A stretch of 39,149 bases of DNA from an uncultured Verrucomicrobiales bacterium. Lineage in GTDB: Bacteria > Verrucomicrobiota > Verrucomicrobiia > Verrucomicrobiales > Akkermansiaceae. Made by a program: the position numbers and the translations under genes. Location of the stretch: assembly GCA_937934595.1 (NCBI GenBank), contig CALGZA010000072.1:1-39149 (forward strand). Direction: 5' to 3'. The notes beneath the pieces were generated by a model, which worked only from the letters and a program-made list of their open reading frames with translations, had not been told where the DNA came from and did no database searches. Below, one piece after another: positions 2,633 to 38,355 of this stretch; positions within the stretch are counted from its first letter, which is position 1, and every line of letters starts with the position of its first letter.

Positions 2633-3430
2633 CTAACGCCTCCTGCGTAAAACTGCCGCAAAAAAACCTAACCCAACCAGTGAAAATGAACTCGGCTCAG
2701 GAACCGGCAAAAAATTAATATTATCGAGTGCCACGATCTCAGTATTAACAGCACTAGGGTTTGGTGGACTAGAACCTATACCCCCATTCAGATTCTCTGA
2801 TCCAAAAATAATAGATGCATTCGGATTAGATAGTAACGCATCAAGCTGAGCCTGCGTAGCCACAACAGATGTTAACGTATTATTGCCGTCACTCAGAATT
2901 CCTCTCCATCCAGATGCAGTCGTAAAATCTCCACTCAGACTGTGCCAAGTGCCATCATTAGCCGGAATATCAATAAGGTTCAAACCAAAACTATTAGCTA
3001 CCGTACCATCCGTTATAACTATATCAGCCCAGTTCAAAACACCAGCTGGCGGAGGAGTCAAACTATAAGAGTTTAAGAAATCAAAACTAAATGAACCACC
3101 AACCAAAGTAGCACTCGCGGGCATCGCAAACCCTATCAAAGGCTGGTCATCAAAAGAATAGATGTAATCATCCCCTGCACCCGCAGGTCCATTTAAAGTA
3201 GTACCAGTAAACAACGGAGGATTAGTAGTAGAACCAGACCAAAATACCCCAGATCCCCCCACAGGACTTAAACCAGAAGAGCTAGTAATAAATCCAGGAG
3301 CACTAGTTTCAAAATCAGAAATAACCTGCCCCCATGCAGATATCGCTAATAAGGCATTAATCACTGCTACTCGGCAGAAACCTCCTTTTTTTTTGATGTA
3401 TAAATTCATATTAATTTTCATTATAAACAT
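2633..3430 (-). CDS. PEP-CTERM sorting-domain protein
   Basis: A 265-residue exported protein with a basic N-terminus and hydrophobic signal core (about residues 19-34), then a Gly, Ser and Asn-rich beta-type ectodomain. The tail has VPEPSS, a hydrophobic helix and RRRR, the classic PEP-CTERM sorting signal. The segment starting DFETSAPGF and the later LDNINF recall beta-sandwich, carbohydrate-binding-like folds seen in other PEP-CTERM proteins, but no catalytic motif is visible. Several in-frame ATGs lie at the N-terminus (codons 1, 4 and 8), and the start may be codon 8, which leaves a normal signal peptide. It lies upstream of the esterase on the same strand. It is probably a surface or matrix protein; no exosortase gene is in this window. 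Confidence 0.8.
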   Translation of the reverse strand: MFIMKINMNLYIKKKGGFCRVAVINALLAISAWGQVISDFETSAPGFITSSSGLSPVGGSGVFWSGSTTNPPLFTGTTLNGPAGAGDDYIYSFDDQPLIGFAMPASATLVGGSFSFDFLNSYSLTPPPAGVLNWADIVITDGTVANSFGLNLIDIPANDGTWHSLSGDFTTASGWRGILSDGNNTLTSVVATQAQLDALLSNPNASIIFGSENLNGGIGSSPPNPSAVNTEIVALDNINFLPVPEPSSFSLVGLGFFAAVLRRRR

Positions 3431-3720
3431 ACTTTAATTTAATGTCAATATATACTTTATAAATTGTAAATCAACTATTGTAATAACTATTTTAAAATCC
3501 TGATGGTGCATCATAGCACAATGATCAGTATTTAAGGCGATGATTATATCAAACCGCAGCATATATAGAATATTATATTAGATTCATTTAAGTTCTAAAT
3601 CACTTCATCACAACCATGTTTCTGATCTGTTTTACGGATTGCTATTAGTAAGCCATAGATCAAGAGCTGATAAACTCGATATATCTGTAACTTCCTTAAA
3701 TAAATGTCTTAACTAAAGGC
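3431..3720. other. Divergent intergenic region, no gene seen
   Basis: This A+T-rich gap separates the minus-strand PEP-CTERM gene from the first plus-strand secreted paralog, so promoters for both directions are expected here. No convincing -35/-10 pair, terminator hairpin or small gene could be picked out by eye. Confidence 0.5.
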
Positions 3721-4476
3721 ATGAACATTAGAAGATTCACAATACCTATAATTACGATAGCCCTTATTTTGGCATCAACTCACAAATCCTTAGCTCAAAA
3801 TAAAAAAACAACAAATACACAGACAACCAAAAACGTCCAAATAGATATAGAAACATACGACATATCTGCACTAGATTTCGCCCACATCATCACCACATAC
3901 ACCGAATCTACATGTGATCAAACCCAACTAAGAGATCAACTCAAAAACAAAAAACACCCAGCTAGAGCAACATTAATAAACAAAAGAACAATTAAAACAA
4001 AAACTAATAAAAAAACAAGAAACACATATAATAAAAAAGAACTGATTAGCTATTCAAAATTTGAAAACCCATACAACAACAGCAATCTACAAATCCGCAT
4101 AAAAAAACAACTCCCCCCACTACCCCCTATGAAAGCAGATTCATATAAAAATATGTTAGGCACAGAAATTAACACGCTTTCAGAATTAAGCAAAGACGGC
4201 AAAACAATCTCATTACAATTTGAGAAAAGAACACAGAGCCTAATTAAATTCCAAACATTTCAAGAGTGGAAAATAAAAAACAAAAAAACACTCATACAAG
4301 TGCCCATAATATACCTTACAAGAATCAACACTCAAATTAAACTAAAACCAAATATATTTTCCCTCATTGCAGCAAACACCCCAGAAATTAACGGCAATCC
4401 TGACCAGACAAAAAAAAGACTCACTTTCGTAAAAATACAGATCCTTAATGATAGAAAAAACAGTACGGATAAATAA
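3721..4476 (+). CDS. Secreted mini-secretin-like paralog 1
   Basis: The first of three tandem paralogs of 251, 246 and 252 residues. It has a signal peptide ending near SLAQ (residue 25) and then a Lys, Asn and Thr-rich mature domain. Shared with its neighbours are an early strand followed by DISALDF, an LRDQL helix, a FENPY segment, a run of prolines (PPLPP), a Q-E-W motif (FQEWKIKNKK) and the C-terminal block GNPDQTKKRLTFVKIQI. The order resembles the beta-domain of secretins: the AFE-type segment, a two-strand hairpin, the threonine and glycine turn, then a closing hydrophobic strand. The sequence is very divergent and this copy is the most degenerate. It probably acts in the periplasm or outer membrane. 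The secretin relationship is my inference; the paralogy is directly visible. Confidence 0.75.
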   Translation: MNIRRFTIPIITIALILASTHKSLAQNKKTTNTQTTKNVQIDIETYDISALDFAHIITTYTESTCDQTQLRDQLKNKKHPARATLINKRTIKTKTNKKTRNTYNKKELISYSKFENPYNNSNLQIRIKKQLPPLPPMKADSYKNMLGTEINTLSELSKDGKTISLQFEKRTQSLIKFQTFQEWKIKNKKTLIQVPIIYLTRINTQIKLKPNIFSLIAANTPEINGNPDQTKKRLTFVKIQILNDRKNSTDK

Positions 4477-4556
4477 TCATCAAAGGCCAATTGATTCAAA
4501 AAAATCAAACCTAATAAAACATAACGTAACGTAATAAAACATAATGCACTAAACAC

Positions 4557-5297
4557 ATGAAATTCACAAAAAAAATAAAGATCATACTAGTTTTAACCGT
4601 CAGTCACATCCCCTTCATCTCCGCTCAGGATAAAAAAACAGATCATCACAAATTTAATCCTACTATACATACCTACATCGAAGAAATCCAGATTTCATCT
4701 ATAGAATTTGTAGATATAATGTCAGTTAGTCATAACAGCACTGATTTCTCAGTATTGAGGAACAAGCTTATAACACTAGTTAAAACAGGACAAGCTAAAT
4801 TCATCAGCAATCAATCTTTAAACTGTATAAGTAAAGATATAAAAACCGTAATGAAATCGGGACAAAGATTTTTAGCGCCATACGATTATGAAAGCCCCTA
4901 CCCTTACCCAGGGCAACTAGGAAAGGCAGCACTGAAAACAGAAGTTCTGTTACCCCCTATACCTAATTACTTCAATCCTTTTTTCAATGGAATTGTCAGC
5001 GACTATAAACACACCCTACTAAAAGATGGGAACAAAGTATTCATTAAATACAGAACAAGCATATCTGAATTTTTTAGCTATAATCTAATGCAAACTTGGA
5101 ACACCGAATTAGTAAAATCTAAAGTACAAAAGAAGAACTTTTATACAAACCATCTAGAGACAGAACTCACTCTAACATTAGGAGAATTCACTCTTGCCTG
5201 CACATACACCCCACTCACTAAAGGAAAACCTGATGAAAGTAAGAAGAACCTCGTTTTTATAAAGTGTAACATCAGCCAGCCCACCAAATCAAAATAA
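4557..5297 (+). CDS. Secreted mini-secretin-like paralog 2
   Basis: The second tandem paralog, 80 bp after the first. It has a signal peptide ending near FISAQ (residue 24). The mature part carries IQISSIEFVDI, LRNKLITLVKTGQAKFISNQ, then YESPYPYPGQLGK and a proline run. A central strand pair around KDGNKVFIKYRTS follows, then QTWNTELVKSK, a threonine-rich LTLTLGEFTLA strand and GKPDESKKNLVFIKCNI. The helix with a Lys/Gly turn (LVKTGQAK) and the DG turn are close to paralog 3 (LVKQGKVK) and to secretin-domain proteins I know from this phylum. No N0-N3 secretin domains are present, and the usual length for a secretin is two to three times greater. The ATG has no Shine-Dalgarno sequence. The function is unknown. 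Confidence 0.78.
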   Translation: MKFTKKIKIILVLTVSHIPFISAQDKKTDHHKFNPTIHTYIEEIQISSIEFVDIMSVSHNSTDFSVLRNKLITLVKTGQAKFISNQSLNCISKDIKTVMKSGQRFLAPYDYESPYPYPGQLGKAALKTEVLLPPIPNYFNPFFNGIVSDYKHTLLKDGNKVFIKYRTSISEFFSYNLMQTWNTELVKSKVQKKNFYTNHLETELTLTLGEFTLACTYTPLTKGKPDESKKNLVFIKCNISQPTKSK

Positions 5298-5344
5298 TCG
5301 CTACCCCATAAAATTAACAAACCCATTAAAAAGTCATACACATC

Positions 5345-6103
5345 ATGAAAAAAATATTCTTTAAAACCTTTGCCCTAAGCTTGTCTATAAGCCCATTTAT
5401 CCACGCTCAAATCAAATCATTAGAAAATGACCTGCCCTCCACAGCTGTGAAGCCAATTCAGAAAAAAAAGAAACCCCAGCTAGTCAGCTTATACACAGAG
5501 ATCATAGACATATCAGCTGCTGACTACATAAAGTTGTCATCAAATCCAGCACTAGAATTTAAAAATCACGACAAATTAAGAAAACATCTCATCGGGCTCG
5601 TTAAACAAGGAAAAGTAAAATTGATCACTAACCAGTACGTGACTATAAAAGTAGGTAGTGATGCAGAATTCAAGCCAACAAATGCAGAATTAAAGTCAAC
5701 AAATGCATACTCATACCCATTAGTGTTTCGATTCCCTGAAGGAGCTACTGACAAAAAAAATACTCCTTCTATACCTGCGGCCTTTGAATCAACAGATGTT
5801 GGATCTAAAATAAAGATCTCTGCTTATTATAATAAATCCGGAATATTGGTATGTTTTTTCAGACCAACCATCGTCACCCTTAAAGGTCAAACAATCTTAA
5901 AAGATTGGAACACAAAATCAGTAAAAGCCGTTAATCAATTACCTGTATTTGAAACCGCCGAAGCCGAAAAAACCATTCCACTCAAGAACGGAAAATTCAT
6001 ACTTGCTGAAGTAAAATCCCCCAGTATTAACAAAAAAATTGATAAAACTAGAAAAATACTATTCTTCCTTAAAGCTGATTTATTATACTCTCAAAATAAA
6101 TAA
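5345..6103 (+). CDS. Secreted mini-secretin-like paralog 3
   Basis: The third tandem paralog, 47 bp after the second, and the one that shows the secretin-like core best. After the signal peptide (ending about FIHAQ, residue 22) it has EIIDISAADYIKL, LRKHLIGLVKQGKVKLITNQ, and then PSIPAAFESTDVGSKIKIS. This matches the TPTAFETxxVG pattern that opens many secretin beta-domains. There follow a GILVCFF strand, the DWNTKSV segment, LPVFETAEAEKTIPLKNGKFILA and TRKILFFLKADLL. The last two correspond to the P-x-F...T-x-V...G-x-x-V...L-x-I-F-x-T-P segments of secretins. The VPxLGDIPxLG pore motif is absent, so a normal secretin channel is unlikely. Pairwise similarity among the three copies is low, which suggests an old duplication under fast divergence. 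Confidence 0.78.
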   Translation: MKKIFFKTFALSLSISPFIHAQIKSLENDLPSTAVKPIQKKKKPQLVSLYTEIIDISAADYIKLSSNPALEFKNHDKLRKHLIGLVKQGKVKLITNQYVTIKVGSDAEFKPTNAELKSTNAYSYPLVFRFPEGATDKKNTPSIPAAFESTDVGSKIKISAYYNKSGILVCFFRPTIVTLKGQTILKDWNTKSVKAVNQLPVFETAEAEKTIPLKNGKFILAEVKSPSINKKIDKTRKILFFLKADLLYSQNK

Positions 6104-6280
6104 TATACCGCTTAAAAACATAATTAAGCATTGTAGAACAGACACATGAAACCACCTTTCTCATGCTCTGCATAACCTAACAATTGGAAGGCAATCTCTC
6201 TAGAAATACCCCCTAAGCTCACAACTCACCCTCCTAGTATCAAATTGCACCTCACACCAAATCTCTTTAGCTAAAGCTTA

Positions 6281-6485
6281 TACCATTTTAACTGTTAGAA
6301 TGGATTCATAGCAAAATAAAATAGCAAGAGTAGCAAGACAAGAGGAAAGCGCATAGTGGTCTATGCAACTGACGAATAACGAAGCTAATCTTGATATATT
6401 GTTTTGCTCTTCAATTAATCAACTCTGCTGCTGTTTACAAATATATTGAAACTACTATCAACCCAGAATAACTGTAAAAATGGTA
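6281..6485 (+). repeat. MITE-like hairpin repeat, copy 1
   Basis: The ends are imperfect terminal inverted repeats: TACCATTTTAACTGTTA at the left and, read on the other strand, TACCATTTTTACAGTTA at the right. Over 31 nt, 24 positions match. A second inner stem pairs GCAAAATA (6311 on) with TGTTTTGC (near 6400), and a central GCATAG-TGGT-CTATGC hairpin follows. A short tagcaagag repeat sits near 6322. The same element occurs at 27506-27728 in the same orientation with base changes that mostly preserve pairing. It encodes no protein, so it could be a miniature inverted-repeat element moved by an outside transposase, or a structured RNA. No clear target-site duplication was found beyond a possible TA. 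Confidence 0.75.
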
Positions 6486-6540
6486 TTACTACATGTTTAA
6501 AGTTCATCCACCTGATTGATAAAATCTTTAGTCTATACTC

Positions 6541-6579
6541 ATTTATCTCACAGTTTTCATCTGAAAATGTAAGATAAAT
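6541..6579. repeat. Imperfect inverted repeat
   Basis: ATTTATCT at 6541 is mirrored by AGATAAAT at 6572, and the inner arms CACAGTTTTCA and TGAAAATGT also pair with one bulge. The hairpin has no T-run on either side, so it does not look like a standard terminator. It could be a protein-binding site or a cruciform. Confidence 0.5.
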
Positions 6580-6885
6580 CACTCGGGTAAAATACCACCG
6601 CCCATAAGAAAAAATAACCCTTTCCCAAGCAGCATAACTAATTGCACATCTTCCACCAAATGATACTTATCACACAATCAACCTCAAATGAATTTAAACG
6701 ATCTGAGGGACATCCCAACTCCGCTCTGGCACACCCCTGATACCCTGCGCAATGAATCACTAAGACCCCATTGAAAAAATACCCCCCAGATCAAAACTTA
6801 ATCCTTTAAATACTCAAAAAAAACCCTAATTTCACCATATCATTAAACAACATCTAGCACCTCATCAACCACTGAATAACAAATC

Positions 6886-7770
6886 ATGAAAAAAGAGAAA
6901 ATAGCTTTTGTAGGAGTTGGCCGCATGGGTGCCAACATGGCACGCAACCTAAAAGACCGTGGCTACCAAATCACAGCAGTCAATGATCTCGACTCCCAAG
7001 CAGCCCAGAAATTAGCTGATGAACTTGACGCCAAAAACTGTGACAACTTAGCCGAGCTCACATCACTTGCAGACGTTATATTTACCGTCGTTAGCAATGA
7101 CAACGCAATGAGAAACATCTTCATGGAAGAACAAAATAACCTCCTCATTGGCGCAGAAGGCAAAGTCTTCATCAACTGCGCAACAGTCTCAGACAAGATA
7201 CAAAAAGAAATAGACTCAGCCGCTAAAGCTGTCGGCGCCTGTACCCTAGAAGCAGCAATGGCCTCCAGTATCAGCCAAGCACGTGAAGGCAAATTATTCC
7301 TCATCATCGGCGGAGAAGAAGAAACCTTCTTAAAGTTCAAACCCATACTAGAAGAAATGAGTGTCAACCTATCTCATACCGGTGATATAGGCAAAGCCGC
7401 ACAAGTCAAAGCTCTAGTCAACATGGTGATGAACATCAACACAGCCGCTCTCGCTGAAGGACTCGGACTCGCAGACGCACTCGGACTTGACCTCAAAATG
7501 ATCACAGACGTATTCGCACAAACAGGCGCTAACAGCCGCGTGCTAGAAACCGATAGCGATGACATGATAGACCGCGACCACGAAGCATGGTTCATGGCTG
7601 AACACGCTGCAAAAGACAGCGGACTCGCTAAAGACCTAGCTGATAACGTCGGGCTCAGCCTCCCACTTAACAATGCCACAAAAGCTCAATACGATAAACT
7701 CACACAAATCGGAAAAGGCCAGCTAGACAAATCAGCCGTATCCGAACTCACTTTCCTCAGCCGCCAATAA
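6886..7770 (+). CDS. NAD(P)-dependent beta-hydroxyacid dehydrogenase (HIBADH family)
   Basis: A 294-residue member of the 3-hydroxyisobutyrate/6-phosphogluconate dehydrogenase superfamily, the normal length for the family. The Rossmann motif VGVGRMGANMARNL lies at residues 9-22. The catalytic Lys is K175 in GKAAQVKALVNM, with the partner Asn at N179. The C-terminal all-helical domain ends with SLPLNNATKAQYDKL. The substrate motif, usually DAPVSGG, reads EAAMASSISQAREGKL here, so the substrate may not be 3-hydroxyisobutyrate; other beta-hydroxyacids such as glyoxylate or succinic semialdehyde are possible. A DUF5069 gene follows after 43 bp, and the strong terminator after it suggests a two-gene unit. 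There is no Shine-Dalgarno sequence before the ATG. Confidence 0.9.
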   Translation: MKKEKIAFVGVGRMGANMARNLKDRGYQITAVNDLDSQAAQKLADELDAKNCDNLAELTSLADVIFTVVSNDNAMRNIFMEEQNNLLIGAEGKVFINCATVSDKIQKEIDSAAKAVGACTLEAAMASSISQAREGKLFLIIGGEEETFLKFKPILEEMSVNLSHTGDIGKAAQVKALVNMVMNINTAALAEGLGLADALGLDLKMITDVFAQTGANSRVLETDSDDMIDRDHEAWFMAEHAAKDSGLAKDLADNVGLSLPLNNATKAQYDKLTQIGKGQLDKSAVSELTFLSRQ

Positions 7771-11302: not shown

Positions 11303-12118
11303 CTAGTAGTCCAGCGTAGCTCCATTATACCCAGGTTCGTCATGCCGCCTAAATCTAGTTTTGCCATGCTTTTCTTCCCACATCTCCTGCACCTCCACAG
11401 TAAGCCTACAAAAAGGAATCGCCTCAATCCGCTCTTTAGGTATTTTTTCTCCAGATATCTCACAATAACCATAAACCCCACGCTCAATTCGTTTAATAGC
11501 ATCCTGTATCTCATACAGAGCGTCTTGTTCTTTAGAAAGCAAGTTTAACGCCAGATCCCTATCATAAGCATCACTACCGGCATCTGCCGTATGCTCCCCA
11601 GATCCAGATAAATCACTACCATCCCCTATTGACTTCAAAGTATCATTGGCATGACCCACTGTCGTATCGATCAACTCATCCTTCAAATCAAGAAGTCTCT
11701 TATACTGAATCTTATCGAACGCGGTCAACTTCCTTACCTTAATCGGCTTCTTCTTTTTATCTTTTAATGACTTCTTTGGTGCCCCAGTTGCCTTCAACTC
11801 AATACTCTTAACAGGCTTTTTGTGAGTCGCAGTAACCGCTTTCTTAGTAGCACTCTTAGCCGCTTTAACAGCCTTCTTAGCTACCTTTTTAGCTGCTTTT
11901 TTCACCACCTTCTTCGCTATTTTAGAGTTAACTTGCTTAGCCACTTTATTAGCTATTTTTTTCTTGGCAACCTTCTTTACCGCTTTCTTAGCTACTTTTT
12001 TCTTAGCTACCTTTTTGACAACCTTCTTTTTCAATGCCTTCTTAGCCACTTTTTTAACCACCTTCTTCTTAGGAGATTTTTTGACTACTTTCTTTGCCGT
12101 TTTTTTCTTAGCTGCCAT
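11303..12118 (-). CDS. Histone H1-like / DksA-TraR family fusion protein
   Basis: A 271-residue protein in two parts. Residues 1 to about 125 are a lysine and alanine-rich low-complexity tail made of repeats such as KKVAKKAVKKVAKKK, like bacterial histone H1-type DNA-binding tails. From about residue 130 it is a DksA/TraR-like domain: a long helical pair (KIQYKRLLDLKDELIDTTVG to ALYEIQDAIKRIERG), then YGYCEISGEKIPKERIEAI, where a C4 zinc finger would be. Three of the four canonical cysteines are replaced (C-x2-S, then T and V in place of CxxC), so zinc binding is unlikely; one extra Cys is at PFC. The likely role is DNA or RNA polymerase binding, but this is inference. A perfect palindrome lies 48 bp upstream of the start. 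Confidence 0.85.
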   Translation of the reverse strand: MAAKKKTAKKVVKKSPKKKVVKKVAKKALKKKVVKKVAKKKVAKKAVKKVAKKKIANKVAKQVNSKIAKKVVKKAAKKVAKKAVKAAKSATKKAVTATHKKPVKSIELKATGAPKKSLKDKKKKPIKVRKLTAFDKIQYKRLLDLKDELIDTTVGHANDTLKSIGDGSDLSGSGEHTADAGSDAYDRDLALNLLSKEQDALYEIQDAIKRIERGVYGYCEISGEKIPKERIEAIPFCRLTVEVQEMWEEKHGKTRFRRHDEPGYNGATLDY

Positions 12119-37362: not shown

Positions 37363-38355
37363 TCATTTGGTCGACTCCAATTTACCTAGCCACTTCTGCC
37401 CCTCTTTGGTTTCTCTACACCATGCTTTTGCCTGAGTGACAGAACTGGGATGACCCATCATTAAATGAGTCGCGATCCATACACCCGATGCCAAAGTGTT
37501 TTTGCCCAGCCAAGCGGCTAGTGCTTTTTTCTCTACTGCAGACTTTGGCATTTTTGCGAAGTCAGCATGACCAAGACCTAATTTCAACACTCCTTCCTTC
37601 AGCAATTTTGAAGCTTCATTCTCATCATGTTCTTTTATTGCAGAACCACTGACACTTTCTCTTTTTATAGAACTCAAGGCGCGCTCAGCCTTGTCTAATA
37701 ATTGCTGCCTAAAATCTCCATCTCCTAAACACCAACCTCGCTCTAGTTCACTATAGCTCTTCCCGGTTTCAGCTCCCTTTGCCTCCAGGTATTTCAAATA
37801 AGATTCTCTACCCAAAGCATTGTCTTTAAAGCTATATGTCCCCAATAACCGGCTCACCTCTAACCATTTTGGACGCTTCATTTCCCAACTACTATAGGCT
37901 GGAAGACTGCTCCAAGGATAGTCTTGTAGTGTTTCCCATTTCTTCCCTTTTCCTATCATCTTTGCTCTTGATGGATTGAGGTGGATGTAATCCGCTACTG
38001 TCTGAAAGTAGCGACCCTCCATCGGATCTGCATTGACTAGTTGCGCTTTGTAGCGACCTTGAAATAAATGCCCTCGTCGCTTCATCCATGCATTGACTCG
38101 CTGGGTGTAGGTTCCTTGTAGCCACTTCATACCTGCTACTAAATTTGCTTCAGGCGTCTCGATCAAAAGATGATAGTGATTACCCATTAAAACATAAGCG
38201 TGAACTATCCAACCCGTTCTCTGGCATGTCTCATTGAGAACTTTAAGAAAGCTCTCTTGACCCATTTTCCCAAAGAAAATCTTATCGCCGTTATTACCTC
38301 GGCTCATCACATGGTAAAATGCCCCTGCAAATTCAATACGTATTTGTCGTGCCAT
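37363..38355 (-). CDS. REP-associated tyrosine transposase (RAYT, IS200-like)
   Basis: A 330-residue Y1-type HUH transposase, intact. The N-terminal MARQIRIEFAGAFYHVMSRG, the HUH motif MGNHYHLLIET (about 58-68), and the conserved GHLFQGRYKAQLV and VADYIHLNPSRA stretches are diagnostic of RAYTs. The extended C-terminal part (about 200-330) with KSAVEKKALAAWLGKNTL resembles the DnaA-like extension of some RAYTs. RAYTs are thought to move and maintain REP repeats as single-strand DNA. Its 5' end carries the GGACTGACCCC motif that I associate with these genes, and its 3' flank is highly structured. It is likely functional, since no stop or frameshift is seen. Confidence 0.94.
   Translation of the reverse strand: MARQIRIEFAGAFYHVMSRGNNGDKIFFGKMGQESFLKVLNETCQRTGWIVHAYVLMGNHYHLLIETPEANLVAGMKWLQGTYTQRVNAWMKRRGHLFQGRYKAQLVNADPMEGRYFQTVADYIHLNPSRAKMIGKGKKWETLQDYPWSSLPAYSSWEMKRPKWLEVSRLLGTYSFKDNALGRESYLKYLEAKGAETGKSYSELERGWCLGDGDFRQQLLDKAERALSSIKRESVSGSAIKEHDENEASKLLKEGVLKLGLGHADFAKMPKSAVEKKALAAWLGKNTLASGVWIATHLMMGHPSSVTQAKAWCRETKEGQKWLGKLESTK

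Follow-up and report, generated by a model that had tools for sequence, protein, structure and literature searches.

The C-domain of a secretin subunit comprises four outer and four inner strands, with a membrane-spanning lip and two gate loops, the latter carried by the inner barrel. An amphipathic helical loop, which is located between the last two membrane strands, has been called the most conserved sequence of the secretin family, and both this loop and the beta-lip have been tied to membrane insertion (accessible parts of PMC8563730, PMC6532946, PMC6155069 and PMC8134430). In RcpA of Pseudomonas aeruginosa, the N-terminal part is described as a single VirB9-like N-domain (PMC10499894, in excerpt).

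Here, we describe three tandem genes for exported proteins, termed mini-secretins, in a stretch of DNA from an uncultured Verrucomicrobiales bacterium of the family Akkermansiaceae (contig CALGZA010000072.1 of assembly GCA_937934595.1). The whole stretch analysed, referred to as the window, has a length of 39,149 nucleotides. It is proposed, with moderate confidence, that the trio belongs, as diverged members, to a family whose small exported proteins each contain a single secretin C-domain and would serve as soluble docking or sensing modules. The homology, the predicted fold, two shortened segments, the tandem arrays and the neighbours of the relatives were computed; solubility and the docking or sensing function are what we infer. 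In the titles and abstract openings of the literature searched, no description was found of stand-alone, loop-less secretin domains or of a pairing of mini-secretin and kinase genes.

Relation of the mini-secretins to the secretin C-domain

The initial annotation suspected that the proteins are related to the secretin C-terminal domain, and Pfam matches, hhalign and structure comparison bear this out. Direct searches of the three window proteins against Pfam and NCBIfam gave only noise, with no match to the Secretin family PF00263, and the trio was therefore identified via its relatives. When 195 genomes of this bacterial family were queried with paralogue 3, encoded by the third gene, 34 gave a match (E ≤ 0.001). 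An iterated hidden Markov model search of the window and of 40 stretches, which were drawn from the 33 other genomes matched by paralogue 3, yielded 85 domains in 80 open reading frames (ORFs). When 82 members were scanned singly, 33 reached E ≤ 0.01 with PF00263 (lowest E value 3.7e-9), and Secretin was the only Pfam family listed. A profile of 79 relatives, in which no window sequence was included, finds the trio at E values of 5.1e-32, 5.4e-26 and 4.5e-22 (search space 10,000). Homology to PF00263 is found via the family members, to which the window paralogues are linked through the family profile.

In profile-profile comparisons with hhalign, the family profile, again without window sequences, matches 25 gated secretins of the same bacterial family with a probability of 100% (E 5.2e-39) and 24 other secretins with 90% (E 1.7e-6). 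Of the single window proteins, paralogue 3 reaches 58% (E 9.9e-5) against the 25 gated relatives, but only 1.4% against the 24 other secretins, and paralogues 1 and 2 alone give 0.2% and 4.5%. The controls, namely the three window proteins in reversed order of residues and the profiles of three partners, score 3.2% or less, the highest value being that of reversed paralogue 2; singly, paralogues 1 and 2 are therefore regarded as giving no signal above control.

AlphaFold yields a confident model of paralogue 3 from 61 aligned sequences (predicted local distance difference test, pLDDT, 91.8; predicted template modelling score, pTM, 0.82), as well as of a canonical relative (pLDDT 92.2, pTM 0.84), and the best structural matches of the paralogue 3 model are secretins. 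All nine matches at E ≤ 0.001 in a Foldseek search against the Protein Data Bank (PDB) are secretin entries. In the VIA comparison, the 28 best PDB entries are all secretins with Z-scores of 8.9 to 12.9, and the next entry, which is unrelated, scores 6.0. Judged by the AlphaFold model, by the finding that only secretin entries reach Z ≥ 8.9 and by the alignment register, the proteins are predicted to possess the C-domain fold including the inner-barrel gate segments. According to the model, this fold (Z up to 12.9) is shared with the PF00263 secretins GspD, InvG, PilQ, RcpA, BfpB and phage pIV, the order of the strands is the same, and segments are in register with both gates. The mini-secretins differ from these proteins by a short lip segment, by the absence of the helical-loop motif and the S-domain, and by their tandem arrays. 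When PDB sequences were searched with the family profile, the secretins RcpA (E 0.04) and BfpB (E 0.22) were matched only weakly, beside calmodulin and a designed protein, and this result was not used as evidence.

Loss of the membrane-inserting elements

Measured between fixed anchor columns, the segment that presumably holds the lip comprises 27 to 37 residues in all 103 mini-secretins, compared with 105 to 144 in all 25 gated relatives; this placement of the lip was deduced from extracellular residues that are missing in the pIV structure (PMC8563730, in excerpt). The segment between the last two outer strands has a length of 15 to 29 residues in the mini-secretins, compared with 49 in every one of the 25 gated relatives. 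The two segments of the window copies span 36 to 37 and 26 residues, respectively. The helical-loop pattern VPxLGxIPxxGxLF, which is equated with the published loop because of its position between the last two membrane strands (PMC8134430, in excerpt), occurs in none of the 103 mini-secretins, whereas the motif is present in all 25 gated relatives (20 by pattern, 5 by eye). Thus, the mini-secretins lack the beta-lip, as judged by segment length, and the amphipathic helical loop, as judged by pattern and segment length. N-domains are missing as well: in the window copies, the first strand of the C-domain follows the predicted signal peptide after only about 12 to 24 residues. The initial annotation had correctly noted the absence of these domains and of the conserved (pore) motif. 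Its suggestion that the proteins are stand-alone outer-membrane beta-proteins, however, is not supported, since both elements that are tied to membrane insertion are lost, and we infer that a soluble exported protein fits better than an outer-membrane protein.

In a rival reading, in line with the initial annotation, the mini-secretins would assemble into small outer-membrane pores, as minimal secretins without N-domains. The kept fold and gate segments would fit this view, and mitochondrial GspD of jakobids, heteroloboseans and malawimonads, likewise a secretin reduced to a portion of its C-domain and devoid of N0-N3 and the S-domain, still inserts into liposomes and conducts (PMC8134430, in excerpt). 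Unlike the mini-secretins, however, mitochondrial GspD has kept the amphipathic helical loop together with membrane insertion and conductance, while in the mini-secretins the motif is absent and the lip segment is short in 103 of 103 cases, which makes pores improbable.

According to the alignment, the gate segments are retained, and Gate 1 of the canonical mini-secretins is nearly identical to that of the gated relatives. The latter are the nearest homologues of the family and share the motifs YPTEYEPPELP and PTAFETRNxG with canonical mini-secretins; they differ by their own long lip segment and a VPxLGDxPxxGRLF-type loop. The initial annotation also described a common TPTAFETxxVG segment. 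It is recognisable in paralogue 3 (IPAAFESTDVG), but has decayed in paralogues 1 and 2, where it can only be placed through the family alignment; the family consensus at this position is PTAFETRNLGSTLEIEP. The putative Gate 1 of paralogue 3 was assigned from the sequence register and the pIV paper (PMC8563730, in excerpt).

The genome of the window encodes two gated secretins (contigs C31 and C63), which carry TPR repeats; the C31 protein also has a below-cut-off STN match, and its gene is located a few genes from a PilM gene. It was considered that the mini-secretins might be accessory or decoy subunits, which join, cap or block the gated secretins of the host. The presence of these two secretins, the close relationship to gated secretins and the almost letter-identical Gate 1 of canonical mini-secretins would be in line with such a role. 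However, the shared Gate 1 sequence is lost in the window copies, no gated secretin was seen in the fetched mini-secretin stretches, and no mini-secretin was found beside the two gated genes of this genome. In the stretches fetched for the gated relatives, the search covered ORFs of 300 amino acids or more, so that an adjacent mini-secretin could be missed. In addition, gated secretins occur in 30 of 30 genomes drawn, including genomes without a mini-secretin match to paralogue 3, which is a weak query. A role as accessory subunits is therefore regarded as rather unlikely.

Distribution and tandem organization of the family

As the initial annotation had envisaged, tandem arrays are found in related genomes. 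In Akkermansiaceae-like genomes, they consist of one to seven copies, and some ORFs contain two or three successive domains. The family consensus, in which weakly conserved positions are capitalised too, reads VRVQVEFIEM ... LVKAGKAKVLETMMVTARSGEKATTESIREFIYPTEYEPPELP ... PTAFETRNLGSTLEIEPTLGEDGKIIDLRFAPEIV ... MPTFYTLRVNTALTLVDGQYVLAAALSPKDAKGKPDPSRKVMVFVKADVL. Luteolibacter marinus, Haloferula rosea and Haloferula sp. BvORR071 are named isolates among the relatives. In a draw of 387 genomes from the whole phylum, a closer profile matched 120 genomes, and the matches among the rows listed are mostly long gated-type frames; short frames outside the family were found too, e.g., in G406 and G391 of the same order. 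More distant mini-secretin-like proteins, some of them encoded by two-domain ORFs, were seen at four loci (L138, L139, L265, L266); one of these, L139 of Chthoniobacter flavus Ellin428, has them as tandem genes. No relative was detected when viral contigs were scanned, and a phage origin is therefore not indicated.

In the phylogenetic tree, the branch separating all mini-secretins from the gated relatives has a support of 100 in the Shimodaira-Hasegawa-like approximate likelihood ratio test (SH-aLRT). Copies of a second, divergent clade, referred to as type 2 (SH-aLRT 80), are present in 18 arrays; the designation type 1 merely denotes copies outside this clade. All 18 arrays start with a type 1 copy, and several alternate strictly, such as 1212 in L046 and L053 and 1212121 in L049. 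Because of this order, with type 1 first in 18 of 18 cases, the arrays suggest that two kinds of subunits are needed together. The window array has no type 2 copy.

The window trio is an outlying and diverged part of the family. Few branches of the tree are as long as those of the trio (1.75 to 2.23); the tree was calculated with a quick method, and the program flagged the three window rows as long branches. The trio could also be a decaying, AT-rich remnant of an array that once had a partner, a reading which does not exclude the others. The long branches and the loss of conserved motifs point in this direction, as do the GC content (0.32 to 0.36 over the trio and its flanks at window positions 3001-7000, mostly 0.41 to 0.49 elsewhere in the window), the stretch of about 780 base pairs after the trio, which is devoid of ORFs of 80 amino acids, and the nearest relative, a likewise lone copy in a Rubritalea-type genome (L036). 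On the other hand, all three frames are open and have start codons and signal-peptide-like starts, the proteins can be aligned with the family over their full length and have its segment lengths (26 and 36-37 residues), and the paralogue 3 model is still confident. Decay is thus seen as a minor possibility.

Genes adjoining the arrays

Among 58 arrays, the same-strand gene at the 3' side encodes a VIT protein in 13 cases, a serpin-like protein in 12 and a histidine kinase in 10, i.e., 35 arrays have one of these partners; 22 have none and one ends at a contig edge. Duplicates (L215, L216) and gated loci (L202, L203) were removed before this count, whereas some broken or partial genes were kept (e.g., L071, L214). 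In two more arrays (L049, G019), a serpin-like gene is located at the 5' side instead. These proportions are not those of a random sample, since the stretches were selected via paralogue 3, via VIT or serpin-like matches, or via mini-secretin or gated matches: 20 later stretches were fetched by VIT or serpin-like matches not yet seen beside mini-secretins, of which four held a mini-secretin, and 16 further stretches were picked from listings of mini-secretin or gated matches.

The kinase link is the tightest of these associations. Using the first 300 residues of the kinase, which end before the HisKA domain, as query, the sensor region was found in 30 of 195 genomes, and in 29 of these a mini-secretin gene is located upstream on the same strand. 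In 27 of 28 uninterrupted genomes, the two frames, taken from stop to stop, range from an overlap of 300 bases to a distance of 4 bases; the 28th is the genome of the window itself, where they are 97 bases apart (contig C41). The sole exception to the pairing is G041 (loci L261 and L268), in which the kinase is broken near the contig end and no mini-secretin is detectable upstream. A fusion of mini-secretin and kinase at L260 was rejected, since the open frame crosses a masked stretch reading as X and is therefore uninformative; this genome was counted among the 29 solely because a mini-secretin is recognisable upstream. In the tree, 11 of the 12 rows of kinase-linked mini-secretins are united in a separate clade (SH-aLRT 92).

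The C41 locus (L201:2874-6049, minus strand) harbours the fourth mini-secretin of the window genome, a 282-amino acid frame directly before the kinase and regulator genes. The C41 kinase contains HisKA and HATPase_c domains and the OmpR-type regulator Response_reg and Trans_reg_C domains; domains typical of a histidine kinase or regulator were identified for this pair and for one kinase of a relative. Two-component systems with an accessory exported sensor protein exist as a general kind. In these, likewise, the gene of an exported protein directly precedes that of a membrane kinase, which in the window genome is followed by the OmpR-type regulator. A two-component system with a secretin-type accessory protein was not found described in the literature searched.

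The VIT partners are exported-looking proteins of about 1050 to 1140 amino acids (e.g., L046:3463-6828 and 12 similar ones). All 13 proteins linked to mini-secretins exceed the curated cut-off for PF08487 (VIT), 10 match SLBB at E ≤ 0.001 (5 over the curated cut-off), and none matches DUF2135 at this threshold. VIT proteins found without a mini-secretin, by comparison, have SLBB in 0 of 7 and DUF2135 in 6 of 7 cases. Judged by this domain content, the VIT proteins beside mini-secretins are a distinct type.

The serpin-like partners are exported-looking as well and comprise about 370 amino acids (e.g., L045:6543-7670, L070:5729-6862). Four of them, scanned singly, score 11.4 to 18.5 bits with a PF00079 cut-off of 27, and no match to PDB sequences was obtained at E ≤ 0.01. 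A serpin identity of this partner was considered and is regarded as a weak likeness. The serpin-like genes are less closely tied to mini-secretins.

The tandem genes and other features of the window

The three ORFs are arranged in tandem on the plus strand and have signal-peptide-like N-termini by eye (Table 1). They are true paralogues, as a search of their genome with paralogue 3 recovers the other two, paralogue 2 at E 1.6e-9 and paralogue 1 at E 2.3e-6; the identity of paralogues 2 and 3 to paralogue 1 is low (25 and 23%, respectively). A fourth match of paralogue 3 in its own genome (contig C11, E 0.08) was discarded: it lies in a 499-amino acid frame in which none of the motifs of the family is seen by eye.

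Table 1. Coordinates of the mini-secretin genes and their predicted parts in the window
Feature	Position	Strand	Basis
Paralogue 1, exported mini-secretin, 251 amino acids	3721..4476	+	ORF; family profile match, E 9.1e-41 at 3814-4449
Paralogue 1, predicted signal peptide	3721..3795	+	by eye, cut after ...SLA
Paralogue 1, secretin C-domain-like region	3814..4449	+	family profile match
Paralogue 2, exported mini-secretin, 246 amino acids	4557..5297	+	ORF; family profile match, E 1.8e-47 at 4644-5279
Paralogue 2, predicted signal peptide	4557..4625	+	by eye, cut after ...ISA
Paralogue 2, secretin C-domain-like region	4644..5279	+	family profile match
Paralogue 3, exported mini-secretin, 252 amino acids	5345..6103	+	ORF; family profile match, E 9.2e-45 at 5462-6088; AlphaFold
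Paralogue 3, predicted signal peptide	5345..5407	+	by eye, cut after ...IHA
Paralogue 3, secretin C-domain-like region	5462..6088	+	profile match and structure comparison
Paralogue 3, short connector at the place of the lip-bearing long segment of gated secretins	5516..5569	+	alignment
Paralogue 3, segment aligned with Gate 1 of secretins, conserved Gly last (AFESTDVG)	5696..5803	+	alignment
Paralogue 3, short loop SPSINKKID at the place of the amphipathic-helical-loop motif of gated secretins	6017..6043	+	alignment

Upstream of the trio, two ORFs on the opposite strand (1712-2593 and 2633-3430, minus strand) have ends that resemble PEP-CTERM sorting signals by eye. Elsewhere in the window, the product of 11303-12118 (minus strand) combines a DksA/TraR-like C-terminus with a long lysine-alanine-rich, histone H1-like N-terminal tail, and that of 37363-38355 (minus strand) resembles REP-associated (IS200-like) transposases, both by eye.

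Proposed function of the mini-secretins

A mini-secretin would consist of one secretin C-domain without N-domains, S-domain, long lip segment and amphipathic helical loop, but would retain the beta fold as well as those segments that align with the gates of the inner barrel. Since both membrane-inserting elements are missing and no lipobox is seen by eye in the window copies, the proteins are expected to stay soluble in the periplasm, either as monomers or assembled, by edge-to-edge contacts like those of secretins, into rings or arcs. In this compartment, they may offer a docking or sensing module to a partner, which in one subfamily would be the sensor region of the membrane histidine kinase and in other subfamilies the large exported VIT/SLBB protein or the weakly serpin-like exported protein. 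The window array, which has no such neighbour, might act in trans or might have lost its partner. As the relatives often adjoin genes of exported proteins or directly precede a signalling kinase, the findings suggest that part of a channel has been turned into a soluble partner protein.

Several observations weigh against this proposal. The template modelling scores of the nine best Foldseek matches are low (0.35 to 0.46 on the model), with a root mean square deviation of 16 to 21 over the whole alignment, and the VIA alignments cover 127 to 146 of about 210 residues. Only 74 of 98 mini-secretin ORFs pass a crude signal-peptide rule, and a crude pattern flags a lipobox in 5 of 98. Twenty-two of the 58 arrays, including that of the window, have none of the three partners. 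The likeness of the second partner to serpins is weak (PF00079 at E ≤ 0.05 in 7 of 14 proteins, best 4.3e-5), and at least nine serpin-like genes are located away from mini-secretins (9 of 10 stretches fetched as not mini-secretin-adjacent). Finally, the alignment indicates that the Gate 1 sequence YPTEYEP is no longer present in the window copies; because of this loss and their long branches, their function may have changed or weakened. Anchoring as lipoproteins was also considered; by eye, several of the five lipobox-flagged ORFs have an ordinary cleavage site just after the lipobox.

More tentatively, one can imagine a three-part system composed of a soluble periplasmic mini-secretin input module (single, paired or two-domain), a membrane histidine kinase with a sensor region that reads its state, and the regulator. 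Paired type 1 and type 2 copies could then form mixed rings, the same ring could serve other lineages as a scaffold for exported VIT/SLBB or serpin-like proteins, and the window array would stand alone.

According to published descriptions, secretins are channels that possess N-domains and insert by a highly conserved loop. If the soluble docking or sensing role proves true, a family that keeps the gate core without the membrane parts would show that the fold works outside membranes, and it would provide a natural minimal construct for studying the cohesion of the ring and the binding partners of the gates. The tie to the kinase would make the function of the mini-secretins directly testable in cultured Haloferula or Luteolibacter.

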